Shown one piece after another: positions 4,981 to 10,708 of a stretch of 64,000 nucleotides of DNA (the stretch's first letter is position 1; the number at the start of each line of letters is the position of its first letter). The notes below the pieces were generated by a model that saw nothing but the letters and a program-made list of their open reading frames with translations, made no database searches and was not told the DNA's origin. The stretch lies in contig NZ_BCAG01000005.1 in assembly GCF_001293685.1 (NCBI RefSeq), forward strand, positions 62,001-126,000, written 5' to 3'. This DNA comes from Desulfatitalea tepidiphila (GTDB lineage: Bacteria > Desulfobacterota > Desulfobacteria > Desulfobacterales > Desulfosarcinaceae). Both the position numbers and the translations under genes were made by a program.

Positions 4981-5364
4981 CTAACGACCGCCTCCGCCGC
5001 CGCATGTATGCTCCTGGCTGAACTGGGGCAGGCGCCCTTCGATGGCAGCCTGCACCGCCTCGCCGACCGTCCTGGCGTTTCCGCCGTGATAGACCTCGAT
5101 ACCCACCTGGTTGAATCCCATCAACGGCCGCAATCCCATGCCGCCGGCGATCAGACGATGGACGCCCTTGCTGGCCAGGTACTGCACCGGCGCCATGCAT
5201 CCGCCCTGTTGATGCGGCATGTTGGGAATCACCGTTACATCACCGATGGCGCCCCCCTCCACGCTGACGAGGGTATAGAGATCACAATGCCCGAAATGGG
5301 CGCCCAGGCCGGCTTCCAACCCGCCCGGGTTTTCCGAAGGGACAGCAATTAAAACATTATTCAT
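4981..5364 (-). CDS. NifX/NifB-family dinitrogenase cofactor-type protein
   Basis: This 127-residue protein begins MNNVLIAVPSENPGGLEAG and contains HFGHCD and GGMGLRPL, typical of the Nitro_FeMo-Co/NifX fold (COG1433). Members bind or carry metal clusters. The C terminus is HTCGGGGGR, a glycine tail often seen in small versions from anaerobes. It lies between the IscU-like gene and two MinD-like ATPases on one strand, consistent with an Fe-S cluster handling operon. No nitrogenase genes are present in the window. Confidence 0.85.
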   Translation of the reverse strand: MNNVLIAVPSENPGGLEAGLGAHFGHCDLYTLVSVEGGAIGDVTVIPNMPHQQGGCMAPVQYLASKGVHRLIAGGMGLRPLMGFNQVGIEVYHGGNARTVGEAVQAAIEGRLPQFSQEHTCGGGGGR

Positions 5365-5388
5365 AATTCCTCCTGTTCGTATAAAGCG

Positions 5389-6273
5389 TCATGCGGCTTT
5401 CAATTCAGCCGCTTGTTGAAGCAATTTCTGCCACGCCTCGCGAAGCTTCCGAGAGGTCGGGCCTTGGGAAAATTCGGTAATGGCGCGCGCCTGAACCATG
5501 GCATTGACGAAATCCGAATCGTGGGGCAACTCGCCCAAAAGGCAAATGCCCCTCTTATCACAAAAGGTACGGATATCGCCAGCAATGGTTTTATTCAGAT
5601 CGCATTTGTTGATGATGACCGACGTGGGTATTTTAAAATAGTCACACAATTCCACCACGCGTTCCAAGTCGTGAATCCCGGATGGGGTCGGCTCGGTCAC
5701 CATCACCGCCAGGTTGGTACCTGAAAGCGCGCTGATGACCGGGCAGCCGATACCCGGAGGGCCGTCGGCAAGGATCAGAGAGGCGCCTTCGGATGCGGCC
5801 AGCTCCCTGGCCTTGGTACGCAGGAGCGCGACCAGTTTTCCAGAATTCTCCTCACCCGGAAAGAGCTGGGCATGGGCCATGGTACCGAACCGGGTATCGG
5901 AAATCGACCAGTCACCGCAGTGCTTGGGTAGGAAATCGATCGCCTTTTCAGGGCAAAAATAGACGCAGACACCGCAACCTTCACAGCGGATGGGATCCAC
6001 CACGGCACCTTCGTCGCCCACTTTAATGGCGCCGAAGCGGCACATCTGCTCGCAGGTCCCACACGATGTACACTTCTCAGCGGCAACCCTGGGTTCAAAA
6101 CCCGATATGAACGCAGTGGTCTGCCTCGGCTCGGGTTGCAGTATCAAATGCAAATCAGGGGCATCCACATCCAGGTCGCAAATGACGGCCTTTTCACAGA
6201 TATGGGCAAAGGCCGCCGTCACCGATGTCTTGCCGGTTCCGCCCTTGCCGCTGATGATCAGAATCTCATGCAT
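5389..6273 (-). CDS. MinD-superfamily ATPase with inserted ferredoxin domain (second)
   Basis: This 294-residue protein has a deviant Walker A (SGKGGTGKTS) at about residues 7-16. Two [4Fe-4S] motifs (CTSCGTCEQMCRFG and CEGCGVCVYFCP) are inserted between about residues 60 and 120, followed by the ADGPPGIGCP and VTEPTPSG switch segments of COG1149 ATPases. The start at 6273 is preceded by GGAGG; a longer frame exists but lacks support. Its start overlaps the stop of the paralogue upstream by eight bases, so the two are translationally coupled and may form a heterodimer. A role in metal-cluster loading, as in Mrp/NBP35, is inference. Confidence 0.88.
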   Translation of the reverse strand: MHEILIISGKGGTGKTSVTAAFAHICEKAVICDLDVDAPDLHLILQPEPRQTTAFISGFEPRVAAEKCTSCGTCEQMCRFGAIKVGDEGAVVDPIRCEGCGVCVYFCPEKAIDFLPKHCGDWSISDTRFGTMAHAQLFPGEENSGKLVALLRTKARELAASEGASLILADGPPGIGCPVISALSGTNLAVMVTEPTPSGIHDLERVVELCDYFKIPTSVIINKCDLNKTIAGDIRTFCDKRGICLLGELPHDSDFVNAMVQARAITEFSQGPTSRKLREAWQKLLQQAAELKAA

Positions 6274-7144
6274 GACGGGCCTCCTTTGCCGGTGCAGCCG
6301 CTTGGCGAATGGTTTCGGCAAGGCGCTGGAACAGGGCCGTCATCGATGCCGAGGTGCGGGCGATGACGTTACCCGCGGCATAGGCCTCCGCAATGGCCCG
6401 GTCATAGGGGATTTCGGCCAGGATCGACAAACCCGCCTGGGAACAGAACCGGTAGACCTCATCATTTCCCACGCCGGCACGATTGACCACCACCCCCATG
6501 GGTTTGCCCAATGTGGTGAACGCCTGGTGGGCCAGGCGCAGATCGAAGACCCCGAAAGGGGTCGGCTCGGTGACCAGGACGACGAAATCGCTGTCGATCA
6601 CCGCGCTGATGGCCGGACAGCTGACACCCGGTGGGGCATCGATCAACACATCGGTGAGATCCGCGGAGACCTCCGGTCGTTTCAACTCCGTCATCACCTG
6701 ATGAATGAGCGGTGGGCTCATCGCTTCACCCACGCGCAAACGGCCCATGAGAAACCTGTTCTCTCCGGACGTTCCCCAGGAAACCTCCCCCAATTTCCGA
6801 TGGGCCGGCGTCAGGGCGCCGGTCGGGCATAGCGCCAGGCATCCCCCGCAACCATGACACATCTCCGGAAAGATCATGATCACGTCGCCCAGCACCGATA
6901 TGGCCTTGTACTCACAAAATTCGGCACATTTCCGGCAATAGTCGCACTTGGACGTGTCGACTTGGGGCACCTCCATCAATGCATCCCGACTGCCGGTGAT
7001 GTCGGGTTTTAAAAACAGGTGCAGATTGGGTTCTTCCACGTCCAGGTCCACGGCCACCACCGGCCTGCCCCAGCTGGCGGACAGGGACGCGGTCACCATG
7101 GTTTTTCCGGTCCCGCCTTTGCCACTGGCGATCGCAATTTTCAT
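6266..7144 (-). CDS. MinD-superfamily ATPase with inserted ferredoxin domain (first)
   Basis: This 292-residue paralogue of the downstream gene has Walker A GKGGTGKTM near residue 8, two [4Fe-4S] motifs (CDYCRKCAEFCEYK, CHGCGGCLALCPTG), the IDAPPGVSCP switch and VTEPTPFG. The start MKIAIASGKGG at 7144 matches the family; the longer frame adds an unlikely tail. It ends eight bases inside the next gene and begins next to the stop of the DUF134-NifX gene. Tandem pairs of this kind are common in anaerobes beside NifX and DUF134 genes. Confidence 0.88.
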   Translation of the reverse strand: MKIAIASGKGGTGKTMVTASLSASWGRPVVAVDLDVEEPNLHLFLKPDITGSRDALMEVPQVDTSKCDYCRKCAEFCEYKAISVLGDVIMIFPEMCHGCGGCLALCPTGALTPAHRKLGEVSWGTSGENRFLMGRLRVGEAMSPPLIHQVMTELKRPEVSADLTDVLIDAPPGVSCPAISAVIDSDFVVLVTEPTPFGVFDLRLAHQAFTTLGKPMGVVVNRAGVGNDEVYRFCSQAGLSILAEIPYDRAIAEAYAAGNVIARTSASMTALFQRLAETIRQAAAPAKEARHA

Positions 7145-7995
7145 TTTCCCAATCCTCTGGCTTGGTCGGCGTTGGACCACGTGACGTCGCCCTTAAGATA
7201 AAGTTCCACAGCCTCGCGCACACTCATATTTTCGAGATTCTGGGCAACGCGGATACCCGTGGCCGCAAGCGCCTGAAAGGCCTTGGGGCCGACATAACCG
7301 GTCAGCACGGCTTCGACGCCGGTGGATACGACGTTCTCGGCAGCTTGAATCCCTGCCCCCTGGGCTCTGGCCTGGCTGGCGCCATTGTCCAGATACTCGA
7401 ACTCCATGGTTTCCGGATTGACGATAACGAAACCGGCCGCGCGGCCGAATCGTGGATCGACGCGATCGTCCAGGGTCGGTCCTTCACTGGTGACTGCGAT
7501 TCTTTTCATGGACATATTCTCCTTTTGAACGAATTGGTGCTCCTGGTGCTGCTTCTGTTGATCCTTTTGGGCATGACACTCAGCACCCACAGGTTCTCCA
7601 AATGCGCAGGTCCGGGGCTCGTGCTGATCATCCGGGTTGTTGTTCGGGTTATCGAATAGACTTTCGGTGAGATCCTCGGTGGCGGCTTCTTCGGAAGCCG
7701 ATTCCGCCAAACGATAATCCCCCCCGTGAATACGTAATGCCATTCCGCCGACTAGAGCCTTGGCGACCGTCTGGTGAGCCGACGCCAGGATTCGGCCAAA
7801 GGTCTGGCGGGAGACATGCATCTGCTGGGCGGCCGCCTCGTGGTTCAACCCTTCCAGATCGGCCAGGCGGATGGCTTCGAAGCCGTCCAATGGCAAATAG
7901 ACTTCCGCCAGTTCACGCAACGGCACTCCCCGGGGCTTGAAATAGGTCACCTCAGGGGTTGTGTTGACATTCCGACATTTTCTAGGTCGCGGCAT
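7141..7995 (-). CDS. DUF134 HTH domain fused to NifX-type domain
   Basis: This 284-residue open frame has two parts. Residues 1-110 are a DUF134/UPF0251 protein (start MPRPRKCR, GVPLREL, EAIRLADLEGL, and helix-turn-helix VSRQTFGRIL), a presumed DNA-binding regulator. Residues about 165-284 are a NifX-like domain (RIAVTSEGPTLDDRVDPRFGRA, DNGASQARAQGAG). The linker is Asn/Gln/His-rich. GGTGGAG precedes the start. An internal AAGGAG with ATG near 7517 or 7511 could also produce the NifX part alone. Fusion suggests a regulator that senses a metal cluster through its NifX domain (inference). Confidence 0.8.
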   Translation of the reverse strand: MPRPRKCRNVNTTPEVTYFKPRGVPLRELAEVYLPLDGFEAIRLADLEGLNHEAAAQQMHVSRQTFGRILASAHQTVAKALVGGMALRIHGGDYRLAESASEEAATEDLTESLFDNPNNNPDDQHEPRTCAFGEPVGAECHAQKDQQKQHQEHQFVQKENMSMKRIAVTSEGPTLDDRVDPRFGRAAGFVIVNPETMEFEYLDNGASQARAQGAGIQAAENVVSTGVEAVLTGYVGPKAFQALAATGIRVAQNLENMSVREAVELYLKGDVTWSNADQARGLGK

Positions 7996-8064
7996 ATTCT
8001 CCACCTTACCTTTGTCATCGTTTTTACGACCAGGACAGATTGGCTTACTACGTTGATGGGCATT

Positions 8065-8088
8065 CGTCAAGGAAAAGAGCATATGCTC
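8065..8088 (-). promoter_or_regulatory. Candidate operator palindrome and -35 for the DUF134-NifX gene
   Basis: GAGCATATGCTC at 8077-8088 is a perfect 12-base palindrome lying six bases upstream (minus sense) of TTGACG (8065-8070). A good -10 is not visible. The arrangement, a palindrome just upstream of a -35, mirrors that at 8998-9017 for the DUF134 paralogue. The rest of 7996-8225 shows nothing else. Confidence 0.35.
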
Positions 8089-8225
8089 ATAAACAGGGTC
8101 GCCAAAGATGGGCCGACACCCGTCCAGATCCAGCCGGGGCCCGACGACGATACGGGTTCCGGCGGCAGCCCGGGCACGTCCGGATTCGGCTCCGAAAATG
8201 CGGTGGCTTGCCGCCGGGACAACGG

Positions 8226-8528
8226 TTATCGACGGTTTCTGCCCGCTCCCCTGGGTCTGCCGCCCCAGACGTCGGAGGAAGAAATTTCCGGCGATGCACC
8301 GGTGGCGCGGAATCGGCCGCCGCGGCCGGTCCCCATGGGCGCGCCGGTCAAACGCCCCTGTCCGGGGAGCATCCCCAGCAGGCGCCGGCATCTATGCTGA
8401 AAGCGCTGCATGATTTGGCCGCCCCAGCCGCCGGCGGCACCCGGCTGATATCCGGTTCGACAACCGCCATACCCTCTTCCAGTTGCGGGACCATTGCCAA
8501 GAGGTCCCCTTCCATCACGATTTGGCAT
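8226..8528 (-). CDS. DUF5320 glycine-rich small protein
   Basis: This 100-residue protein starts MPNRDGRGPLGNGPATGRGYG, the hallmark N terminus of DUF5320 proteins found beside NifX and DUF134 genes in anaerobes. It is rich in Gly, Arg and Pro and has little predicted structure. The start at 8528 has a near-perfect ribosome site (AAAGGAGG, six-base spacing); the longer frame begins without one. Function is unknown; association with metal-cluster genes is the only clue. Confidence 0.75.
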   Translation of the reverse strand: MPNRDGRGPLGNGPATGRGYGGCRTGYQPGAAGGWGGQIMQRFQHRCRRLLGMLPGQGRLTGAPMGTGRGGRFRATGASPEISSSDVWGGRPRGAGRNRR

Positions 8529-8561
8529 GATATGCCTCCTTTGCTCAGGGTTTTTCACCCG

Positions 8562-8930
8562 TTAAAACTCTCTCATTCGTCTTCCACGGCCGTGGCCGCC
8601 CCCCATGGGGCCGGGCCGATGCGCCTGACCTTCCTGGCCGACCACCCGGTAACTGCCCCCGTCGATGTGAATGGCCCATCCGTTGCTCAATGCCCGGGCC
8701 ACGACACGACGCGCTTCGGCCAGGATCCGGGAAAAGGTTGGCCTGGAAACGCCCATGCGTTCGGCCGCCTCCAGATGGTCCATCTCTTCGGCATCCGCCA
8801 GGCGAATCGCCTCCAGCCCCTCTATGGAGAGATTTAGGCCGGTCAACCCCTCCAGCGGCACACCTTGGGGTTTATAAAAGGTGTGCACGGGTTCACGTCC
8901 CACACGGCGGCATTTTCTGGGTCTCGGCAT
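8562..8930 (-). CDS. DUF134 family HTH protein
   Basis: This 122-residue stand-alone paralogue of the DUF134 half at 7995 has MPRPRKCRRV, GVPLEGLTGLNLS, EAIRLADAEEMDHLEAAERMGVSRPTFSRIL (helix-turn-helix about residues 50-75) and a His/Gly/Arg-rich tail. DUF134 proteins are predicted DNA-binding regulators of redox or cofactor genes. The ATG at 8930 is chosen because GGGGAG lies five bases before it. A perfect sigma70 promoter and two palindromes precede it, suggesting autoregulation. It is probably the first gene of the minus-strand cluster. Confidence 0.85.
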   Translation of the reverse strand: MPRPRKCRRVGREPVHTFYKPQGVPLEGLTGLNLSIEGLEAIRLADAEEMDHLEAAERMGVSRPTFSRILAEARRVVARALSNGWAIHIDGGSYRVVGQEGQAHRPGPMGGGHGRGRRMREF

Positions 8931-8946
8931 GTTCACTCCCCGTTTG

Positions 8947-9073: not shown

Positions 9074-9117
9074 TAAAAAAAGAGGCCGCATCCCCAACCC
9101 AAGGGATACGACCTCTT
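9074..9117 (-). terminator. Intrinsic terminator of the peroxiredoxin gene
   Basis: On the minus strand a 15-base stem (AAGAGGTCGTATCCC with GGGATGCGGCCTCTT) is followed by a run of seven T. It lies just after the stop codon at 9154. Confidence 0.85.
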
Positions 9118-9153: not shown

Positions 9154-9870
9154 TCAATCGAATGCCATCTCGGTTTTCCACACCTCCCACACCTTGCCGA
9201 CCAGATCGGGCCCGGGTTTCAAGGTCACTTTGCCCGGTTTCCAGCCGGATGGAGTGGCTTCCTTGCCCTTGCTGTTTCTCACCAACTGGAAAGCCTGCAC
9301 CTGTCGGATGGATTCCATGATATTGCGTCCCACCGGCGGTGTCAGCACCTCGAAACCCTGCACCACGCCCTCGGGATCGATGATGAACCGGCCGCGGGTT
9401 TCCACGCCGGCGTCTTCGTCGTATACGCCGAACACCTTGCCGACCCGTCCGCCGGCATCGGAGAGCATGGGGAACGGCACCCCGCCGTTCACCATCTTGG
9501 ACAGTTCATTGTCGTTCCACATTTTGTGGACGAACACGCTGTCGATGCTCATGGAGAGAATCTCAACGCCGAGTTTCTGAAATTCGGGATACTTTTCGGC
9601 AACTGCCGAAATTTCGGTCGCTCAGACGAAGGTGAAATCGCCCGGATAGAAACAGAGAATGACCCACTTGCCCAAATACTCGGACAGTTTAACCGCGCCA
9701 AATTTTCCTTGATGATAGGCCGGAGCAGTAAAATCCGGAGCTTTTTTACCAACTTTTATCATGGGGGTCACCTCCTTTTGCGTTTGATGAACAACTTCCT
9801 TCGGCTCTGCTACCGTCTCTCCGACCGGTCCGCCAGTGGGCCTGGCACAGCCAACCTCCACCTCTTCCAT
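9154..9870 (-). CDS. Selenocysteine-containing peroxiredoxin (AhpC/TSA family)
   Basis: The frame is continuous if TGA at 9622-9624 is read as selenocysteine: [21 protein letters not shown] matches the peroxidatic motif FTFVCxTE of AhpC/TSA enzymes, which reduce peroxides. Ten bases after UGA a stem-loop (TTTCGGC / AGTT / GCCGAAA, 9611-9594) is well placed for a bacterial SECIS. The resolving-Cys region EVCPA reads [10 protein letters not shown], so no C-terminal resolving cysteine exists. There are two starts with strong ribosome sites: 9870 (238 residues, adds a Cys8-containing tail) and 9762 (202 residues, Sec47). It lies downstream of a Fur-type regulator. Annotation programs will split it in two. 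Confidence 0.88.
9594..9624 (-). promoter_or_regulatory. Candidate bacterial SECIS element
   Basis: A 7-bp perfect stem with a four-base loop starts ten bases after the in-frame UGA, within the coding sequence, as required for SelB recruitment in bacteria. An overlapping palindrome CCGAAATTTCGG (9607-9618) offers an alternative fold. Confidence 0.65.
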
Positions 9871-10009: not shown

Positions 10010-10213
10010 CTAAACATCCAGCCAGATGTCGGCCTCGCTTCCGCAGTGGCTGCACACGGCATGCCCCTTGGTTTTGCCTTCAGCCGCTCCGACGATTTTC
10101 GGCGGCGGCGCATCATCCGGCAACACATCCGACAACGAGCACGTCACCACCATCTCCGCCTCGTTGCCGCAGTTCTTGCATTCACACACCTGTTTAAAAG
10201 TTTTTTCTGCCAT
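10010..10213 (-). CDS. Small zinc-ribbon protein
   Basis: This 67-residue protein has two cysteine pairs (CKNCG near residue 12 and CSHCG near 57) that should bind one zinc or iron. I do not recognise a named family. The start at 10213 is supported by GGAGGTGA; the longer frame adds eight residues. It follows the Fur-family regulator by 27 bases and precedes the selenoperoxiredoxin, so it is probably part of the same peroxide or metal response unit. Confidence 0.65.
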   Translation of the reverse strand: MAEKTFKQVCECKNCGNEAEMVVTCSLSDVLPDDAPPPKIVGAAEGKTKGHAVCSHCGSEADIWLDV

Positions 10214-10240
10214 GACGTCACCTCCTGTTGCCACCCCGCC

Positions 10241-10681
10241 CTATTCTATTGGCCTGCAATTGGCGCAAAGGCCGAAAAAATCGAGCCGATGGGTCAATAT
10301 TTTAAACCCGGTCTCTGTCTCGACCTCCTTGGACATGTCCCTGAGGCTCTCGAGATCCGGATCCACGATGGTTTTACACCTCACGCAAATCAGGTGAGGG
10401 TGTGGGTAAGGCTTGTTGCCATCATAACGGTTGCTGCCGTCGGCAAATCCCAGTTCCAGAACTTCGCCCAACGACTTGATGAGCATCACGTTGCGGTACA
10501 CCGTGGCGAGGCTCATGGTCGGAAATTCGTCCCGCAACTGTTCGAAAATACCCTCGACCGACGGATGACCCTCGCTCATCGCCAGCAACCTGGCAATGGC
10601 CAGGCGCTGAGGCGTCAACTTGTGGTTGCTGCCCTTTAACTTTTCGATAATGGAACGAAACCTCGTGTCATGGTCGGTCAT
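10241..10681 (-). CDS. Fur-family transcriptional regulator (PerR-like)
   Basis: This 146-residue protein has a winged helix (LTPQRLAIARLL...HPSVEGIFEQL...SLATVYRNVMLI) at about residues 15-80 and a dimerisation domain with HPHLICVRCKTIVD. The cysteine pairs CVRC and CANC form the structural zinc site. The location next to peroxiredoxin suggests a PerR role, sensing peroxide through Fe-bound histidines; a Fur role cannot be excluded. The ATG at 10681 is preferred over an in-frame TTG at 10702. A perfect Fur/PerR-like box lies 28 bases upstream, implying autoregulation. Confidence 0.87.
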   Translation of the reverse strand: MTDHDTRFRSIIEKLKGSNHKLTPQRLAIARLLAMSEGHPSVEGIFEQLRDEFPTMSLATVYRNVMLIKSLGEVLELGFADGSNRYDGNKPYPHPHLICVRCKTIVDPDLESLRDMSKEVETETGFKILTHRLDFFGLCANCRPIE

Positions 10682-10708
10682 TGACGGCAACCTCGATGGC
10701 AAGTTTTA

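Follow-up and report, generated by a model that had tools for sequence, protein, structure and literature searches.

A selenocysteine peroxiredoxin gene of Desulfatitalea tepidiphila with a conserved N-terminal arm cysteine and a probable internal translation start

The window analyzed here, a 64,000-nucleotide stretch of the Desulfatitalea tepidiphila genome, carried a peroxiredoxin gene on its minus strand. The long frame of this gene ran from 9870 to 9154 (238 residues, with the terminal stop TGA at 9156-9154), and its sole interruption was a TGA at 9624-9622, which corresponded to residue 83. Peroxiredoxin homology spanned this TGA, as indicated by matches to AhpC-TSA (4.7e-39), 1-cysPrx_C (4.4e-06), and solved peroxiredoxin structures. 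A short frame (9762-9154) began at an internal ATG at 9762-9760 and had 202 residues, with the in-frame TGA at position 47. The short form scored 399.1 bits over core residues 1-199 against NCBIfam model NF040737 (peroxi_PrxU), which has a cut-off of 270, and the long frame scored 413 bits over positions 2-233 of the model. The highest of the other bacterial family models was AhpC, which reached 189.6 of 272 bits and was under its own cut-off. When the AlphaFold model of the product was compared with the PDB, 2-Cys peroxiredoxin chains were at the top of the list, which indicated a Prx1/AhpC fold. The window gene is prxU, an ordinary member of the PrxU family of selenocysteine (Sec) peroxiredoxins with the Prx1/AhpC fold, and it is not new. 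PrxU is common among these anaerobes: of 297 genomes sampled from the phylum, 95 had a match over the cut-off. Sec peroxiredoxins are also among the proteins listed in a 2026 review (PMC13188914), a Sargasso Sea survey (PMC1088965), and a Desulfotignum genome paper (PMC4046663).

Two genes were located upstream of prxU on the same strand: a gene for a Fur/PerR-family regulator (10241-10702) and, just upstream of prxU, a gene for a 74-residue protein that contains two CxxC pairs and matched no Pfam family (10010-10234). This pair was complete only in near relatives; a PerR/Fur relative was found in 14 of 74 prxU loci, and the small CxxC protein was found in 2 of 74. Downstream of prxU and a terminator-like hairpin plus T run (9080-9117, minus strand; a pattern match only), genes for DUF134, NifX-like, and MinD/Mrp-type ferredoxin ATPase proteins occupied 4981-8936 of the minus strand. 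A DUF134 and a NifX-like domain shared one open frame (7141-8391), and a second DUF134 gene was at 8562-8936. Among 45 loci that included both flanks, 8 contained Mrp/NBP35-type ATPases, near-identical locus L040 being one of them, and such ATPases were also near prxU in Peptoclostridium acidaminophilum. An operon link between prxU and these neighbors was considered and set aside, as these counts were too weak.

The first-pass annotation had placed a selenocysteine codon, UGA at 9622-9624 (minus strand), at the site of the peroxidatic cysteine, and this reading was borne out by the frame, which remained the same to 9154, and by the NF040737 homology on both sides of the codon. The locus of Desulfatitalea sp. 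UBA4791 (L040), which is 98% identical, had the same in-frame TGA. In addition, 105 rows exceeded the PrxU cut-off by a hand count; 98 of them had at least one in-frame TGA, and 7 had none. Because the TGA recurred in L040 and in these 98 rows, a sequencing error was very unlikely.

A hairpin with 7 pairs and an AGUU loop (UUUCGGC-AGUU-GCCGAAA, 9611-9594, minus strand) began 10 nt past the UGA, and it had been proposed as a SECIS element whose folding should be checked. Folding the hairpin alone gave a modest result (z of -1.6, with 13 of 200 shuffles equal or better), and no family was matched in an Rfam search. The comparison with relatives was more informative. In an alignment of 62 sequences chosen from 107 (A3), 98.8% of the cells were paired, and sliding the partner by 1 to 3 columns lowered this value to 41-71%. 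Both-side changes were observed in 39 cells of this alignment compared to 10.8 in shuffles, but the number of pairs with a both-side change (two) was no higher than in shuffles. Each of the 7 pairs was standard in 104-107 of the 107 distinct relatives, and both-side changes occurred at four pairs, in 37, 6, 37, and 1 sequences, respectively. Thus, the pairing was kept by compensatory changes in relatives, and the SECIS claim rests on this covariation because the single-sequence fold and the Rfam search gave weak or no support.

The annotation had also named the sel genes as a check on its reading, and all of them were encoded in the window genome (5.6 Mb, 98% complete): SelA scored 530 bits, SelB scored 374 bits, and SelD scored 380 bits. 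A tRNA-Sec was found at 73.4 bits; its anticodon (TCA) was inspected because 5 of 14 control genomes also had a hit over the family cut-off. With PrxU homology over the cut-off, the sel genes, and the covariation of the hairpin, the selenoprotein reading held, and the UGA at 9624 would almost certainly be read as Sec via the hairpin, SelA, SelB, SelD, and tRNA-Sec. The support for Sec insertion is as good as sequence allows. The SelD gene (L136, G000:C1:801085-802008) contained an in-frame TGA of its own (GAGUASK) and is itself a selenoprotein candidate.

The relatives used for the counts below were the best 80 of 433 from a similarity search and further regions picked by hand, many of which were picked because the match missed the N-terminal arm or scored low. 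Because of this sampling, the counts lean to Desulfobacterota and 32 of the 33 rows without an arm were hand picked.

The first 36 codons of the long frame preceded the peroxiredoxin core and formed a conserved arm that carried Cys8 (codon TGT, 9849-9847, minus strand). The arm consisted of a conserved motif (residues 7-18, 9852-9817) and a variable linker that was predicted to be disordered (residues 19-36, 9816-9763). A Shine-Dalgarno (SD)-like AAAGGAG (9883-9877, -8.7 kcal/mol) preceded the first start, and an SD-like site was found at this position in 127 of 129 relatives; when the start was assigned more crudely, 85% of 108 were at -6 kcal/mol or better. The pN/pS value was 0.237 for the arm motif around Cys8 and 0.175 for the core (130 loci), and the value for the motif leans low because the arm was recognized by a pattern that contains Cys. 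Cys8 was encoded 67 times by TGT and 63 times by TGC. From these data, the arm codons look translated and under purifying selection.

In an unselected alignment, 132 rows had letters at the Cys8 column. Of these, 121 had Cys, including three chance or doubtful cases (L139, L163, and L165), and the other 11 rows lacked the arm motif. A search among the relatives for the arm motif without the cysteine found none. The 131 of 131 Cys count in arm-bearing forms and the invariance of Cys8 in an alignment of 67 chosen sequences (A2) were circular because the arm-recognition pattern contains Cys, and one false arm match (L142) was moved by hand into the armless set. The residues beside Cys8 varied by lineage (CARPTGG, CVKPSRG, CGKPTGS, and CAAGTGT), and P. 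acidaminophilum prxU and a plasmid copy from Chloroflexota also had the arm. In the AlphaFold model (mean pLDDT of 85.1 overall, pTM of 0.81), the core was of high confidence, and residues 1-11 and 13-34 were below a pLDDT of 50, such that the arm was disordered and undocked. We also considered the arm as a separate small gene, as suggested by extra stops in six genomes, but this idea was dropped: the stop was within the core in G186, at the gene end in G050, G116, and G086, and ahead of an armless gene in G107, and in G106 (L180) the arm was open through to the core.

Ahead of the internal ATG, an SD sequence, AAGGAGGTG (9777-9769, minus strand, -12.6 kcal/mol), was located within Lys-Glu-Val codons. 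The Met at the second start was kept in 128 of 128 scored arm-bearing forms, and 124 of 126 distinct upstream stretches contained an SD pattern, mostly 8 nt away; L050, L097, and L183, in which the core pattern was not found, were left out of this count and of the codon count below. By a looser count, an SD was found at the second start of 130 of 131 arm-bearing relatives, compared to 131 of 611 other internal Met codons. The mean anti-SD pairing of the second start was -11.2 kcal/mol, compared to -5.4 kcal/mol for synonymous recodings and -3.6 kcal/mol for other internal Met codons (109 of 112 loci scored, with 534 other internal Met codons as controls). The Lys and Glu codons at the internal SD were AAG in 91 of 96 cases and GAG in 93 of 96 cases, compared to 48% and 41%, respectively, within the cores of these genes, and GGAGG was still present where the residues were Gly-Gly, Arg-Arg, or Pro-Glu. 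The same two-start layout was observed in P. acidaminophilum prxU and in the Chloroflexota plasmid copy. The internal start was thus accompanied by an SD beyond codon expectation, the feature that we looked for in a two-start gene. Selection at the nucleotide level for internal initiation appears to be the simplest account of these data, and it is very likely that ribosomes would start at the two in-frame ATGs and produce a 238-residue long form and a 202-residue short form. In the papers covered by a literature search, no title dealt with a double start or an arm cysteine of PrxU.

Each of the two forms could instead be the only one that is made. If only the short form were produced, the upstream stretch would be an untranslated leader. 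The strong SD at the second start is compatible with this idea, as is the finding that six armless Sec-type relatives (L138-L141, L143, and L146), which have a C-terminal or other Cys, start at the second-start position. However, an untranslated leader would not account for the low pN/pS of the arm motif, the use of both Cys codons for Cys8, the SD-like site at the first start, or a frame that was kept open, and we regard a short-only gene as highly improbable. Production of the long form only, which is the form used in the P. acidaminophilum genome annotation, would make the internal SD-like site a matter of chance or a pausing signal. This alternative is improbable too, as the SD was at a start-like distance from a kept ATG and exceeded codon expectation.

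The cysteine content of the window protein was limited to Cys8 and Cys73 (codon 9654-9652, minus strand, ten residues before Sec) in addition to Sec83. Where 2-Cys peroxiredoxins have their C-terminal resolving cysteine, structure matches and the alignment identified Thr206 (codon 9255-9253), and the annotation was correct that the site reads EATPS. The absence of the resolving cysteine was not peculiar to this gene, but usual across PrxU. Of the 131 arm-bearing forms, which comprised 130 Sec forms and 1 Cys form, 128 had no C-terminal resolving Cys and three (L174, L185, and L187) had both cysteines. In 116 of 131, the stretch from Cys8 to the core end contained no cysteines but Cys8 and Cys73 beside Sec or its equivalent. 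Among the 33 armless relatives, a C-terminal Cys was present at the usual place in 17 and one residue on (PCGW) in 5. The remaining 11 included six with a Cys elsewhere in the C-terminal part, three with none (L147, L150, and L165), one with a Cys near the N-terminus after a signal-like stretch (L163), and one broken copy (L030), which was counted as armless although its stop is in the core and the arm is actually upstream.

A Fisher test for an association between the arm and the C-terminal Cys gave 3e-16; this value ignores relatedness and hand picking and was not used as proof. We also built a quick tree of 87 sequences, in which 21 of 84 inner branches were starred; L030, L166, and L144 were left out, and the CARPTGG rows were 25 random ones plus the window's own. 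On this tree, the arm changed state twice, the C-terminal Cys (PCGW included) changed seven times, and the forms with both cysteines were nested in the arm clade. An independent-pairs test yielded 2 pairs (p = 1). Because the arm arose about once on the tree, few events underlie the link between the arm and the loss of the C-terminal Cys. The tree fits a relaxed constraint on the old resolving site after the arm had been gained, but one arm gain is no statistical demonstration.

The closest known system was the PrxU of Peptoclostridium (Eubacterium) acidaminophilum, whose core was 72.3% identical to that of the window protein. It shared the Sec at the peroxidatic site, the missing C-terminal resolving Cys (EVAPSGW), the arm Cys (GCARP), and an internal AAGGAGG plus ATG. 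It differed in the arm motif after GCARP, and it belongs to another phylum (Bacillota) and is encoded on a large plasmid, EAL2_808p. Its two starts would yield 240 and 203 residues, with Sec84 and Sec47, respectively. The founding enzyme was reportedly described in 2001 as a 203-residue protein with Sec47. The C. sticklandii genome paper has an entry that lists Sec84 of 240 (PMC3091704).

Typical 2-Cys peroxiredoxins (Prx1/AhpC) have the fold and core sequence in common with the window protein, but they contain a peroxidatic Cys and a C-terminal resolving Cys, whereas the window protein contains Sec and Thr206. Vertebrate peroxiredoxin 4 forms a Prx1-type ring and has an N-terminal stretch of about 40 residues with a cysteine (PMC9573489); the same source calls this arm Cys non-catalytic and describes it as joining subunits. 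Unlike PrxU, peroxiredoxin 4 keeps the C-terminal resolving Cys and has Cys rather than Sec. The 1-Cys peroxiredoxins (Prx6), like PrxU, lack the C-terminal resolving Cys, and this class would describe the short form. However, the best family model for the window protein was PrxU. A 1-Cys enzyme would have no resolving Cys in the protein; the window protein has Cys8 and Cys73, either of which may or may not act as a resolver.

In enzymes of this kind, Sec reduces peroxide and becomes selenenic acid. The first-pass annotation had concluded that recycling would need another thiol, which overlooks a conserved candidate cysteine of the same protein, Cys8, whose arm is within the annotated coordinates. 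In the scheme that we propose, Sec83 would reduce peroxide to give the selenenic acid, and Cys8, which is on a flexible arm of 36 residues and would be present only in the long form, would attack it to produce a selenenylsulfide. A thioredoxin-type reductant would then open the Cys8-Sec selenenylsulfide. The donor of Cys8 could be the same or a neighboring long subunit, and short subunits would borrow Cys8 or be reduced directly; more speculatively, a mixed ring could allow long subunits to act for short ones. Taken as a whole, the best explanation, which we hold to be probable, is a Sec prxU gene with two starts and with Cys8 as the proposed resolver. That arm Cys8 took over as the resolving residue is a tentative proposal to which we give somewhat less than an even chance: the Cys at its column and the usual absence of the C-terminal Cys from arm-bearing forms are in its favor, and the three arm-bearing relatives that keep both cysteines, as well as the disordered, undocked arm of the AlphaFold model, speak against it. 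Furthermore, the chemistry may not need Cys8 because the short form and three armless second copies (L147, L150, and L165) would have none. The broader idea, in which PrxU moved its resolving residue from the C-terminus to the N-terminal arm and the internal start sets the ratio of self-resolving to resolver-free subunits in one ring, is possible but doubtful.

The main rival to Cys8 as the resolver is direct reduction of the selenenic acid by an outside thiol, such as thioredoxin or a small thiol, in which case the arm would have another role and the existence of two forms, or of one, would be independent of catalysis. The lack of Cys8 in the short form and the armless second copies suits such a one-Sec mechanism, as do two other Sec peroxiredoxins of the window genome (L003 and L005), which seem to do without a resolving Cys; the P. 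acidaminophilum enzyme is also said to be active with dithiothreitol. We consider this mechanism a substantial possibility, though less likely than not, as it does not explain why Cys8 is the sole never-changing residue of the arm or why the C-terminal Cys is frequently absent when the arm is present. The second rival is a docking or targeting peptide, with the internal start producing an untagged form. A short motif followed by a variable linker, an enzyme, and an internal start would be in keeping with this function, and PduB/PduB' of microcompartments are made via an internal start. However, an invariant Cys is unusual in docking or targeting tags, and a cargo tag for an encapsulin or a microcompartment was rejected because the genome has no encapsulin (PF04454) and no microcompartment shell protein (PF00936). 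A shared address tag was rejected as well, as the motif pattern was found once exactly in the genome and once with 3 mismatches, which was the control level; a docking arm is thus unlikely. As for Cys73, it was found in 131 of 131 arm-bearing forms and would be present in both isoforms. However, its occurrence does not follow the disappearance of the C-terminal Cys because 8 of 33 armless relatives also had Cys73, and six of these 8 have retained the old site. In addition, Cys73 is predicted to be in a central strand (residues 69-75, AlphaFold), such that contact with Sec would be doubtful, and its role as the resolver is very unlikely.

The less ordinary side of this gene is that PrxU apparently occurs family-wide in a short and a long form, the latter with an extra conserved cysteine. 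The arm cysteine and the kept internal start offer a directly testable answer to how recycling could proceed without the usual resolving cysteine, and two forms would reconcile a protein of reportedly 203 residues with an annotated length of 240. Should the founding work have used the 203-residue enzyme, as is said, it would have seen only the form that lacks the proposed resolver. Constructs that begin at just one of the two starts may leave out half of the system.

Some additional copies and relatives were recorded. In the window genome, L003 (G000:C4:88513-88890) is peroxiredoxin-type with an in-frame TGA at the active site, is PrxQ-like by eye, and has no cysteine at all; L005 (G000:C6:760496-760867) is also peroxiredoxin-type with an in-frame TGA at the active site, and its sole cysteine is lipobox-like. 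L147, L150, and L165 (G183, G230, and G207, respectively) are divergent armless PrxU copies that are nested in the arm clade; they have neither Cys8, Cys73, nor the C-terminal Cys and have kept the GGAGG and ATG of the internal start, and G207 and G230 also hold an arm-bearing PrxU copy. L164 (G282:C1) is an arm-bearing PrxU with Cys in place of Sec, and its genome additionally encodes a Sec form of PrxU. The arm cysteine of L164 is kept, and so is its internal GGAGG, though the residues there are Pro-Glu-Ala.
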